Part shown: piece after piece, positions 21,853 to 54,802 of the stretch
Position numbering within the stretch: position 1 is the first letter of the stretch
How the letters are laid out: each line of letters starts with the position of its first letter
DNA from: Latilactobacillus sakei
GTDB taxonomy: Bacteria; Bacillota; Bacilli; Lactobacillales; Lactobacillaceae
Direction of reading: 5' to 3'
Assembly: GCA_002953655.1 (NCBI GenBank)
Contig: CP025839.1
Location: 1-64,000, forward strand
Length of the DNA stretch: 64,000 nt
Program-made: the position numbers and the translations under genes
The notes under the pieces: generated by a model
Databases searched by the model: none
Told to the model about the DNA's origin: nothing
Seen by the model: only the letters and a program-made list of their open reading frames with translations

Positions 21853-22617
21853 ATGATTAGTATCGAAGAACGCCAATTTGGCGCCGTTAGCACATTAATT
21901 GTGACGCCAAGTGGGCAAGAACAAACCTTGTTACCAACGGTATTTGTCTATCACGGTTGGACGCATCGTAAGGAATCTGAATTGATGTTGGCTAACTTTC
22001 TCGCTAAAGCAGGTTTTCGGGTTGTTTTACCAGATGCCAAATGTCATGGTAAACGCCACGGTAGCCAAATGTTTTCAGAGTTGATGTTTGAATTCTGGCA
22101 GATTGTGATGCAATCAGTCGATGAATTCGGGCCATTAGTTACCGCCTTACAAGCAGAAGGCTTAGTTGACCCAGAACGCCTGGGCGTCACTGGCACATCA
22201 ATGGGGGGGATTACAACGGATGCCATTTTAGCCCGTTATCCCAACGTTAAAGTCGGTGTTGACAAGATTGGCTCACCAATGCCAGTAGCGTTTGCTAAAT
22301 GGCAAACCAGTCAACTACCACAATCGATTCAAGAACGGTACCAAGATCAAATTGAAACGACACTCGCAGATTTGGCAGATTATGATTTAGCATTGAATGC
22401 CAGTCGTTTAGCGGGTCGCCCACTCCATTTTTATCACGGAACAGCTGATCCAATGGTGCCTTATCAATTTACTGCTGATTTCATCACGCAGATTACAGAA
22501 GATGAAACCCCAGCAACAAAACAAGTTACATTAACGACTGAAAATAACGGTCAACATAAAGTATCTGACGAGGCACAACTGGACACCGTCACATTTATGC
22601 AGGCTCATCTGAAATAA
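21853..22617 (+). CDS. Alpha/beta hydrolase (YitV-like esterase)
   Basis: This is a 254-residue serine hydrolase of the dienelactone hydrolase/prolyl oligopeptidase type. The HGW oxyanion segment (VFVYHGWTHRKES) and nucleophile elbow GTSMGG near residues 115-120 are visible. The acid is probably in HGTADPMVPY and the catalytic His in NGQHKVSDE near the end. The closest family I recall is Bacillus YitV, a predicted esterase with unknown natural substrate. It is preceded by GAGGGAGA and ends at a terminator. Confidence 0.8.
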   Translation: MISIEERQFGAVSTLIVTPSGQEQTLLPTVFVYHGWTHRKESELMLANFLAKAGFRVVLPDAKCHGKRHGSQMFSELMFEFWQIVMQSVDEFGPLVTALQAEGLVDPERLGVTGTSMGGITTDAILARYPNVKVGVDKIGSPMPVAFAKWQTSQLPQSIQERYQDQIETTLADLADYDLALNASRLAGRPLHFYHGTADPMVPYQFTADFITQITEDETPATKQVTLTTENNGQHKVSDEAQLDTVTFMQAHLK

Positions 22618-22665
22618 AAAATAGCTAGCGATTGAACCGATATTGGTCAACTGCTAGCTATTTTT
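22617..22665 (+). terminator. Terminator after the esterase gene
   Basis: AAAATAGCTAGC pairs with GCTAGCTATTTT around a 23-base loop, followed by T residues. Confidence 0.85.
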
Positions 22666-22667
22666 AT

Positions 22668-22706
22668 GCAAACAAAAAGCCGGTCTTGGGGGGACCGACT
22701 TTTTGC
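22668..22706 (+). ncRNA. Hairpin 1 with loop TTGGGGG
   Basis: GCAAA..AAAAAG.CGGTC pairs with GACCG.CTTTTTGC, leaving the 7-base loop TTGGGGG (22686-22692). It is the first of three hairpins with G-rich loops in a gene-free stretch of 378 bp. Confidence 0.55.
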
Positions 22707-22739
22707 AGATCCGAAGATCTAAAAAGGAGTAAGGGTTCT

Positions 22740-22766
22740 ACAGATTATTTTGGGGGGATAATCTGT
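22740..22766 (+). ncRNA. Hairpin 2 with loop TTTGGGGGG
   Basis: The perfect 9-bp stem ACAGATTAT / ATAATCTGT carries the loop TTTGGGGGG (22749-22757). It resembles hairpins 1 and 3 in loop sequence but not in stem sequence, which points to a conserved loop function. Confidence 0.55.
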
Positions 22767-22769
22767 ACG

Positions 22770-22785
22770 GTGAAGCGCGCTTCAC
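22770..22785. promoter_or_regulatory. Palindrome GTGAAGCGCGCTTCAC
   Basis: This is a perfect 16-base palindrome between hairpins 2 and 3. Its first 13 bases recur at 22891-22903 upstream of the HAD phosphatase gene. It could be a protein-binding site or another RNA stem. Confidence 0.5.
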
Positions 22786-22789
22786 CAGT

Positions 22790-22812
22790 ATTTTACTTTG
22801 GAGGAGTAAAAT
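22790..22812 (+). promoter_or_regulatory. Hairpin 3 presenting a Shine-Dalgarno in its loop
   Basis: The perfect 8-bp stem ATTTTACT / AGTAAAAT holds the loop TTGGAGG (22798-22804). The GGAGG is a Shine-Dalgarno, and the ATG at 22811 starts in the last stem bases. Confidence 0.55.
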
Positions 22813-22837
22813 GAAAAAGTTAAGTAGTATGAAATAG
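22811..22837 (+). CDS. Putative 8-codon peptide MKKLSSMK
   Basis: ATG at 22811 has GGAGG 6 bp upstream and is followed by seven codons and TAG. A strong hairpin ATAGAAAAG/CTTTTCTAT (22834-22856) begins at the stop codon. The peptide is too short to classify. It could be a leader peptide that controls downstream RNA, or an accidental frame. The ribosome-binding site quality and its place in hairpin 3 are the only support. Confidence 0.3.
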   Translation: MKKLSSMK

Positions 22838-22856
22838 AAAAGTATCGCTTTTCTAT
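22834..22856 (+). ncRNA. Hairpin 4 after the short ORF
   Basis: ATAGAAAAG / CTTTTCTAT is a 9-bp perfect stem with loop TATCG. It is not followed by a T run, so it is not a standard terminator. Confidence 0.5.
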
Positions 22857-22890
22857 ACTTGTAACTATAAGGGGTAAATGTGAAGATTTT

Positions 22891-22903
22891 GTGAAGCGCG
22901 CTT
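22891..22903. repeat. Second copy of GTGAAGCGCGCTT
   Basis: This is a direct repeat of 22770-22782, 121 bp further on and 92 bp before the HAD phosphatase gene. Here the palindrome is incomplete. Confidence 0.5.
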
Positions 22904-22995
22904 TATAGATTTATGAAAAAAAGGATAAGGAAAGTTTAAGGCTAAAATAGTATGCTAAAATAAAGTATATTCAAAGAGATTGAGGATGAAAACTG

Positions 22996-23664
22996 ATGAC
23001 AAAAGGAACCGTTTTATTTGATTTAGATGGTACGATTGCTGACTCACAAAAAGGGATTATTAATGCCTTAGAGTATATGATTGAGGAACTGGCTTTGCCA
23101 ACGCAAACGACAGCCCAATTAATTAGTTTTATTGGGCCACCCCTTAACGAAACGATTATGAAGGTCTTTGGTTTGGATGAAGCGGCCACACAACAGGCGA
23201 TTAAAACGTTCCAAGCATATTATGCGCCTAAAGGCTTATATGAAAATGAGCTTTATCCAGGGATGCACGAAACATTAGCCGCCTTGCAAGCCCAAGATTT
23301 ACAATTAGCGATTGCAACGTCTAAACCGGAACCCTTTGCTAAGAAGATTATCGATCACTTAGAATTAACGCCTTATTTTAGCGGTGTTTACGGTGCCAGT
23401 GTTGATGAAACAACGCGGGTTAAAAAAGCGGACGTCATTACTTATGCGTTGGCAGAACTCGGTTTATCAACGAAGACCGAACCACTCTTGATGGTTGGTG
23501 ATCGCCAAAATGATATCCTTGGTGCCAAACAAAATGAAATGGCAGCTGTTGGTGTCAGTTATGGTTTCGGGAGTATCGCTGAACTAAAAAAAGCCGGTGC
23601 GGTCCAAATTGTGACCCAACCGACTGATTTAATTACGACGTTACCCGCTAATTTGAAACTTTAG
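22996..23664 (+). CDS. HAD-family phosphatase (Gph/PpaX-like)
   Basis: This is a 222-residue haloacid dehalogenase hydrolase of the phosphoglycolate phosphatase type. Motif I is FDLDGTIADS at 8-17, motif II ATSKPEPFAKK with its Thr/Ser, and motif IV MVGDRQNDILGAK. The helical cap domain lies at about 17-90. The true substrate is not predictable from sequence; small phosphate esters or pyrophosphate are likely. The start follows GAGGAT. The 3' end overlaps the convergent nrdI by four bases with no terminator between. Confidence 0.82.
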   Translation: MTKGTVLFDLDGTIADSQKGIINALEYMIEELALPTQTTAQLISFIGPPLNETIMKVFGLDEAATQQAIKTFQAYYAPKGLYENELYPGMHETLAALQAQDLQLAIATSKPEPFAKKIIDHLELTPYFSGVYGASVDETTRVKKADVITYALAELGLSTKTEPLLMVGDRQNDILGAKQNEMAAVGVSYGFGSIAELKKAGAVQIVTQPTDLITTLPANLKL

Positions 23665-54674: not shown

Positions 54675-54690
54675 TGGTTTAATAGAGAAA

Positions 54691-54781
54691 GGCACTTTCC
54701 TACGCAAGTCTGAACTTACAGGTTCAAAGGGATCAGGTTGTACAAACCTATCTCAGTTCTTCTAAGAACACCCCTAGTGCA
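54691..54781 (-). promoter_or_regulatory. TPP (thiamine pyrophosphate) riboswitch
   Basis: On the minus strand, the THI-box core is visible: ACTAGGGGTG at the 5' end, CTGAGAT, then CCCTTTGAACCTG and TGCGTAGGAAA at the 3' end. The order, spacing and the terminator that follows show a functional aptamer controlling thiM-thiD-thiE-cytX. The 3' arm is somewhat changed between CCTG and GCGTAGG. Confidence 0.95.
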
Positions 54782-54802
54782 AAGCGATTAAATTGTACCT
54801 TC

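Follow-up and report, generated by a model that had tools for sequence, protein, structure and literature searches.

The stretch from 22668 to 22856 of the window (the whole 64,000 nucleotides of Latilactobacillus sakei DNA analysed here, positions 1 to 64,000 of CP025839.1) carries a cluster of hairpins with similar loops and a short reading frame, raising the question of which strand is transcribed and what its product might do. The evidence favours an RNA read from the minus strand, whose C-rich loops would bind the G-rich Shine-Dalgarno (SD) regions of mRNAs, over the plus-strand RNA with G-rich loops. It seems to belong to a family widespread among lactic acid bacteria that is apparently built to cover mRNA start signals. 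The sequence supports the strand, the structure, the promoter box, the family and a conserved anti-initiation stretch. Taken as a whole, the best explanation, and one that we hold with good confidence, is a trans-acting small RNA (sRNA) covering mRNA start signals under two-component, envelope-stress control.

Strand and architecture of the RNA

Each hairpin described in an earlier note on this DNA was recovered on the plus strand, with loops TTGGGGG (22673-22705), TTTGGGGGG (22739-22767) and TTGGAGG (22790-22812), as was the fourth, over the stop codon of the reading frame (22834-22856). That description lacked a GGTGAAG/CTTCACC hairpin, a UUCG hairpin and a promoter box on the minus strand at 22864-22894. 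The features are as follows.

22669..22856, minus strand: small RNA gene of about 188 nt, both ends predicted, recognised from its fold z and from an architecture common to 7/7 Latilactobacillus sequences
22864..22894, minus strand: promoter box TCACA-N6-TCACA-N9-TATAGT, a direct repeat with 11-bp spacing and a -10 box
22834..22856, minus strand: 5' hairpin ATAGAAAAG/CTTTTCTAT at the predicted transcript start, with 9-nt arms; the stem is invariant and hence carries no covariation evidence
22800..22818, minus strand: anti-initiation stretch UUUUUCAUUUUACUCCUCC, complement of GGAGGAGUAAAAUGAAAAA, that is, of an SD, AUG and Lys-Lys
22790..22812, minus strand: hairpin with loop CCTCCAA (anti-SD) and 8-nt arms; stem invariant
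22769..22786, minus strand: spacer hairpin GGTGAAG-CGCG-CTTCACC; stem and loop vary between species in the seven sequences
22739..22767, minus strand: hairpin with loop CCCCCCAAA and 10-nt arms; covarying stem, C-run retained
22721..22735, minus strand: unpaired linker CCCUUACUCCUUUUU, a second anti-SD stretch, from the minus-strand fold and the alignment
22707..22720, minus strand: UUCG hairpin AGATC-UUCG-GATCT, from the minus-strand fold and the alignment
22673..22705, minus strand: intrinsic terminator with C-rich loop CCCCCAA, T tail and 13-nt arms; compensatory and G-U changes
22811..22837, plus strand: mini-ORF MKKLSSMK, which mirrors the anti-initiation stretch and is not considered a gene

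Several lines of evidence bear on the strand. The minus strand folds with z-scores of -7.44 to -7.59 and the plus strand with -4.13 to -4.68; on either strand none of 200 shuffles was as stable as the native sequence. Folding is stronger on the minus strand in all seven Latilactobacillus sequences that make up the genus alignment, and the sRNA strand also folds more strongly in 21 of the 24 loci fetched from outside the genus. Placed on the minus-strand structure, the seven sequences yield 315 pair cells, not independent of one another, the sequences being related: 294 are Watson-Crick, 15 G-U, 4 A-C and 2 other, and the 15 G-U cells become A-C mismatches on the plus strand. Nine of the 45 pairs predicted on the minus strand have both sides changed yet paired in the seven-sequence alignment, but RNAalifold also gives nine compensated pairs, out of 48, on the plus strand, so that covariation alone cannot set the strand. 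It is the G-U asymmetry and the fold z in 7/7 sequences which favour the minus strand. In the minus fold the C-rich loops remain open, whilst in the plus minimum free energy fold U-G pairs largely close the G-rich ones.

A regulatory RNA or leader transcribed from the plus strand, with G-rich loops and possibly translating MKKLSSMK, is thus a highly improbable reading, and we rejected it in view of its weaker folding, the G-U asymmetry, the direction of the promoter box and the frame's loss outside the genus. The hairpins do form on that strand, the terminator scan scores two sites there, and the SD, ATG and reading frame are well placed: the ATG (22811) lies inside the stem, as the earlier note had it, the stop is at 22837, and the eight codons are invariant in the seven Latilactobacillus sequences. 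Outside the genus the frame is nevertheless lost: in the 24 other loci its equivalent ranges from 2 to 28 codons, reads MKKLT in 12 and differs in the others. Furthermore, the plus strand has no promoter-like site in 22500-23100, and the conserved promoter box points the opposite way. The apparent SD and MKKLSSMK are the mirror image of the anti-initiation stretch. What survives of the earlier proposal of a regulatory RNA binding C-rich partners is therefore the regulatory RNA with repeated loops; its strand and polarity are reversed, the loops of the minus RNA being C-rich. A plus-strand target of a GGA-binding protein and an SD-sequestering leader, also proposed, found no positive support.

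The predicted start lies 7 nt past the -10 box. The 5' hairpin (22856-22834) and the hairpin at 22812-22790 are separated by an unpaired linker in the minus-strand fold, which leaves the CCTCCAA loop and the UUUUUC side of UUUUUCAUUUUACUCCUCC open and holds its middle in the stem of the latter hairpin. In all, four C-rich sites of the RNA are single-stranded, namely the loops of two hairpins, a linker and the loop of the terminator. The terminator was called by the scan on the plus strand only; its arms are 92% complementary, with a single C/A mismatch on the plus strand.

The GTGAAGCGCGCTTCAC palindrome, with a partial copy at 22891-22903, was considered as a protein operator and rejected because in relatives it is simply a variable RNA stem. 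Two neighbouring elements may be recorded. A further block 5' of the box, at 22895-22950 (TTTTTTCATAAATCTATAAA and CTTAAACTTTCCTTAT on the minus strand), is nearly invariant in the seven Latilactobacillus sequences and contains TTCATA, 22 bp from the first repeat. The space separating the sRNA from the esterase-like gene holds a long inverted repeat flanked by A and T (22617-22665), which might terminate transcription bidirectionally.

The RNA family, its promoter box and tRNA-shaped sisters

By DNA search, the region is present in each of the five same-genus genomes (own included) among 60 genomes, and in an L. curvatus record. A covariance-model search across Lactobacillaceae, the check proposed in the earlier note, was made with a model, R1, built from seven close relatives with an invariant 5' half and giving rough E-values. 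At E<=0.1 it matched 138 of 397 genomes, spread over 22 of 40 genera, a single genome having as many as 6 matches; the best E was <=1e-3 in 94 of the 397 and >1e-3 in 44 of the 138, and with the stricter filters and the small seed alignment these counts include some chance matches and leave some members out. Within the seven sequences the C-rich loops are conserved while stems covary, except in the 5' half, which is invariant and so carries no covariation. Sequence was retrieved for the 30 best loci, of which 6 belong to the genus and 24 do not. All 24 of the latter hold the anti-initiation core, having been found with a model that contains it. The terminator loop of L007 lacks a C-run and reads UUUCCAA.

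No Rfam 15 family reaches its gathering cut-off at the sRNA, in keeping with the earlier impression that no known RNA family fits, and nothing is found at E<=1 for the window locus (L066). Sub-threshold matches to Rfam ar14 overlap the sRNAs in L071 and L076 (31.9 and 34 of 58.8 bits). Elsewhere in the window, a TPP riboswitch lies above the gathering cut-off on the minus strand at 54680-54785. We recognised no description of the RNA or the box in the titles and abstract openings of the open-licence PMC literature. A phage origin was set aside, there being no phage match, as was a plasmid origin, the sole match in the plasmid collection being an L. curvatus record that starts with dnaA and looks chromosomal. 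This 592-kb record (CP117684.1, L062) is filed as a plasmid; it begins dnaA, dnaN, yaaA, recF, gyrB.

The promoter repeat lies outside the R1 model. Among the 24 best-scoring loci outside the genus, 23 carry TCAYA-N6-TCAYA-N9-TA...[T/A] no more than 75 nt from the model start, where the remainder of these loci predicts 0.04 repeats; in the twenty-fourth (L091) the repeat is farther upstream. In the own genome, TCAYA-N6-TCAYA-N9-TANNNT has five sites against none for reversed-pattern controls. One belongs to the window sRNA, three more (at 614.15, 614.45 and 1936.0 kb) are sister sites whose loops show CCTCCCAAG, and the fifth heads a membrane-protein-like gene (1365.9 kb). A sigma-70 scan did not report the box, and its two minus-strand matches, at chance level, lie elsewhere.

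The TATNNT form of the box has 88 sites in 39 of the 60 genomes, against 10 for reversed-pattern controls. All 88 were classified by script, the downstream sequence of 33 was also read by eye, and 400 random places, some inside the same loci as the boxes, served for comparison. A C-rich, terminator-ended stretch without an 80-aa ORF follows 50/88 boxes and 23/400 random places; a C-rich stretch lacking a terminator within 260 nt follows 14/88 and 84/400; an ORF of at least 80 aa follows 17/88 and 71/400 (Fisher p 0.76); and neither class applies to 7/88 and 222/400. The C-rich, terminator-ended class is thus strongly enriched after boxes and the ORF class is not. Since ORF-headed boxes are no commoner than at random, the envelope genes found under the box are examples and not an enrichment. 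By Pfam they comprise an HtrA-type trypsin-PDZ protein (L153), a signal peptidase (L147), an M23/PcsB-type hydrolase (L183; whole gene in L235), a MacB-core protein (L221) and FtsX permeases, the FtsX cut-off being reached in two of four permease-type ORFs and missed in L152. The box-headed ORFs of L225 and L160 have no Pfam match.

A UUCAUU..ACUCC core lies 3' of 26/88 boxes against 11/400 random places; some of these boxes come from other families within the order (L139, L140, L142-L144 and L186-L190). This bears on whether the transcript might mainly be a sponge, a protein ligand or a terminator cluster of the neighbouring genes, without start-region pairing. Two terminator-like repeats do stand back to back at the locus, and the parts of PMC4132741 consulted discuss protein-binding sRNAs that have repeated loops. 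The RNA has its own conserved promoter box, however, the complement of SD-AUG-Lys is present in 24/24 fetched, model-selected loci as the core is at 26 of the 88 promoter-selected sites, and the C-rich loops are retained while the stems change. Such a role without start-region pairing therefore appears unlikely, and pairing with start regions is preferred.

Some RNAs under the same box in six Latilactobacillus genomes contain a tRNA-shaped domain with acceptor, D and T arms and compensatory changes. The domain could be parsed in 10 of 12 loci tried, the exceptions being L157, whose T-loop has an additional base, and L103, of which the 3' part alone is kept. All seven acceptor pairs form in nine of the ten domains (four in L155) and all five T-stem pairs in all ten, with pairing-preserving stem changes such as UGAGUUA/UAACUCG versus UGCGUUA/UAACGCG. 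The anticodon arm is replaced by a piece of 48-139 nt with TTGAAATTCCTCCC, invariant in nine aligned sequences; an exact pattern for this insert occurs at 13 places, against none for controls, in 6 of 397 family genomes, all Latilactobacillus. Against the Rfam tRNA model (cut-off 29 bits), two of five loci pass (L211 at 37.2 and L205 at 32.6 bits), two fall below (L156 at 28.3, L155 at 21.2) and L154 gives no match; ARAGORN found no tRNA in 16 sister loci. The own-genome copy (L106, G000:C1 about 1935.7-1936.04 kb) has an insert of 139 nt and scores 14.3 bits over part of the model. It carries the anti-SD loop UUCCUCCCAAG in its anticodon-arm hairpin, as do L211, L208, L156, L205, L154, L204, L202, L206 and L155. 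These sister RNAs are the most novel part of the analysis, and would represent an unusual reuse of the tRNA fold as a regulatory scaffold. At G000:C1:614.0-614.5 kb (L097, L103, L104), two tandem box-driven C-rich sRNA candidates stand beside a repeat-rich, surface-protein-like ORF, and one of them retains only the 3' part of the tRNA-like domain.

Candidate regulator and proposed action

The likeliest regulator of the sRNA is a PieRS-like two-component system. It comprises an OmpR-family regulator (L231:7812-8552; G000:C1:1370314-1371051 in the own genome) and a kinase (L231:6376-7812). PieR (NF041209) is the regulator's best NCBIfam name among 97 families, at 299.3 of 450 bits and thus below the cut-off. 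An ortholog-level match (E<=1e-74) is present in 45 of the 60 genomes, and these hold 84 of the box sites, as against 4 in the 15 genomes without one; in two genomes of another family lacking the ortholog, the box precedes a permease-like ORF (L221, L222).

Gene neighbourhoods point the same way. A box-headed membrane-protein or transporter operon lies beside the regulator pair or about 3 kb from it in four of five regions (own genome, G052, G059 and G043), and in the fifth (G038) the box heads an M23/PcsB-type gene 5.5 kb off. In the own genome this is the site at 1365.9 kb (L099, L231:2197-3457), where a membrane-protein-like ORF and its partner, with no Pfam match, lie about 3 kb from the kinase gene; an FtsX domain is present in the corresponding ORFs of G052 and G043. 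In G043, which is called Listeria-like because it holds LhrC, a box-headed FtsX permease and ABC ATPase adjoin the PieR-like pair, and presumably are the transporter Lmo1505/Lmo1506. The Listeria PieRS system is reported, in the portion of PMC12234432 consulted, to regulate lmo1505/lmo1506, prsA1 and prsA2. A weight matrix of 18 boxes, with background from L. curvatus, places a box above 99% of background at 2/5 prsA-like (PF13145) genes of Listeria-like genomes and 0/7 of others, with L255 above 95%; the prsA-like gene of the own genome is without a box.

That the box of the minus-strand sRNA is read by another OmpR-family regulator is a tenable but less probable alternative. Related regulators number 2 to 9 in 57 of the 60 genomes, Listeria LhrC depends on LisRK (PMC4132741, seen in part), and binding of the PieR-like protein to the box is a prediction. 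The strict repeat stands at the regulator's own promoter in 2/30 loci; confined to the genus there, it led autoregulation to be rejected. Against this alternative stand the linkage with box-headed operons in four of five regions, the boxes at two of five prsA-like genes of Listeria-like genomes and the distribution of R1 among the 31 family genomes outside the genus (G006-G036), where it is present in 8/21 with the regulator and 0/10 without (Fisher p 0.03, confounded by ancestry). The PieR-like system keeps its place as the likeliest regulator.

For this sRNA we infer expression, the activating regulator, pairing in the cell, the targets and the link to stress. A response regulator of the OmpR family, most likely the PieR-like one, would bind the direct repeat over the -35 region and activate the promoter when the envelope or secretion is under stress. 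The RNA would then present its four C-rich sites, and UUUUUCAUUUUACUCCUCC could cover the SD, the start codon and the first Lys codons of a target mRNA. Pairing of this kind may keep ribosomes from entering mRNAs that have a strong SD and begin AUG-AAA-AAR, a set expected to be rich in exported proteins.

The target signal in silico is weak and suggestive only. Three other places in the own genome come within three mismatches of the 19-nt complement, against none for controls; by eye, one belongs to an MFS-type transporter, another to a short protein that looks soluble, and the third to an exported L,D-transpeptidase-like protein, L239 at 1825.2 kb. Over 242 start regions (300 kb of L. curvatus) the mean predicted pairing energy was -11.18 for the real sequence and -10.52 with the 5' half shuffled, four of 40 shuffles being as low. 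By a crude hydrophobicity rule, 12 of the top 40 have a hydrophobic N-terminus compared with 39/242 overall (p 0.012).

A wider proposal would be a PieR-like envelope-stress system of Lactobacillales with an RNA arm, in which several anti-initiation sRNAs per genome damp exported-protein synthesis at SD-AUG-AAA-AAR, including in Latilactobacillus tRNA bodies whose anticodon arm is replaced by the anti-SD hairpin UUCCUCCCAAGAA; we regard its prospects as evenly balanced. If the main explanation holds, an unannotated RNA family is common to a large group of food and gut bacteria, its promoter signature predicts both its members and their regulator, and there is a direct route to test how Gram-positives lower their secretion load under envelope stress. 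In E. coli, the sigma-E sRNAs have such a role.

Comparison with known systems

By analogy, the sRNA would work like the streptococcal csRNAs and Listeria LhrC, and has no Rfam match at cut-off. According to the parts of PMC3091779 and PMC8186281 consulted, the csRNAs of the CiaRH regulon likewise exist in several copies per genome, end in a 3' terminator and are preceded by a two-component direct repeat with N5 spacing just 5' of the -10 box. The repeats differ, however: TTTAAG-N5-TTTAAG, 10 nt from the -10 box, in the csRNAs, and TTCAYA-N5-TTCAYA, 9 nt from it, here. CiaR binds NTTAAG-N5-TTTAAG, whereas the box at this locus is TCACAAAATCTTCACA, and CiaRH is reported only in streptococci in the same portions of those papers. 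In contrast to the csRNAs, anti-SD sites are here also found in hairpin loops.

The PieRS system of Listeria (Lmo1507-Lmo1508) resembles the present one in that it supplies the best NCBIfam name and in that the transporter genes adjoining the pair in G043 are box-headed; it differs in that the own genome's regulator lies below the NF041209 cut-off. The main text of PMC12234432, as accessed, contains none of the terms 'Small RNA', 'consensus', 'binding site' and 'htrA'.

The UCCC-motif sRNAs of low-GC bacteria (RNAIII, RsaE, SprD and FsrA; PMC4132741, in part) share a C-rich, SD-binding motif. The present RNA resembles this class in that C-rich motifs in loops and single strands are conserved while stems vary, with the terminator loop of L007 as an exception; it differs in having no Rfam match and in that its pairing with SDs is a weak prediction in silico.

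LhrC (RF00616), as described in the same portion of PMC4132741, is also multicopy and two-component-dependent, with three redundant CU-rich loop or linker sites that bind SDs. By eye, the LhrC copies read here also carry UUUUCAUUU..CCC. RF00616 has no match in the own genome at E<=0.1, and matches three of the six genomes searched, all of one genus. A TCAYR-N6-TCAYR repeat stands upstream of 4/10 LhrC copies, at two different distances. LhrC depends on LisRK (PMC4132741), whilst for the sRNA described here a PieR-like regulator is the likeliest. Should the present reading be right, csRNA, LhrC and this family would represent three separate solutions to one task.
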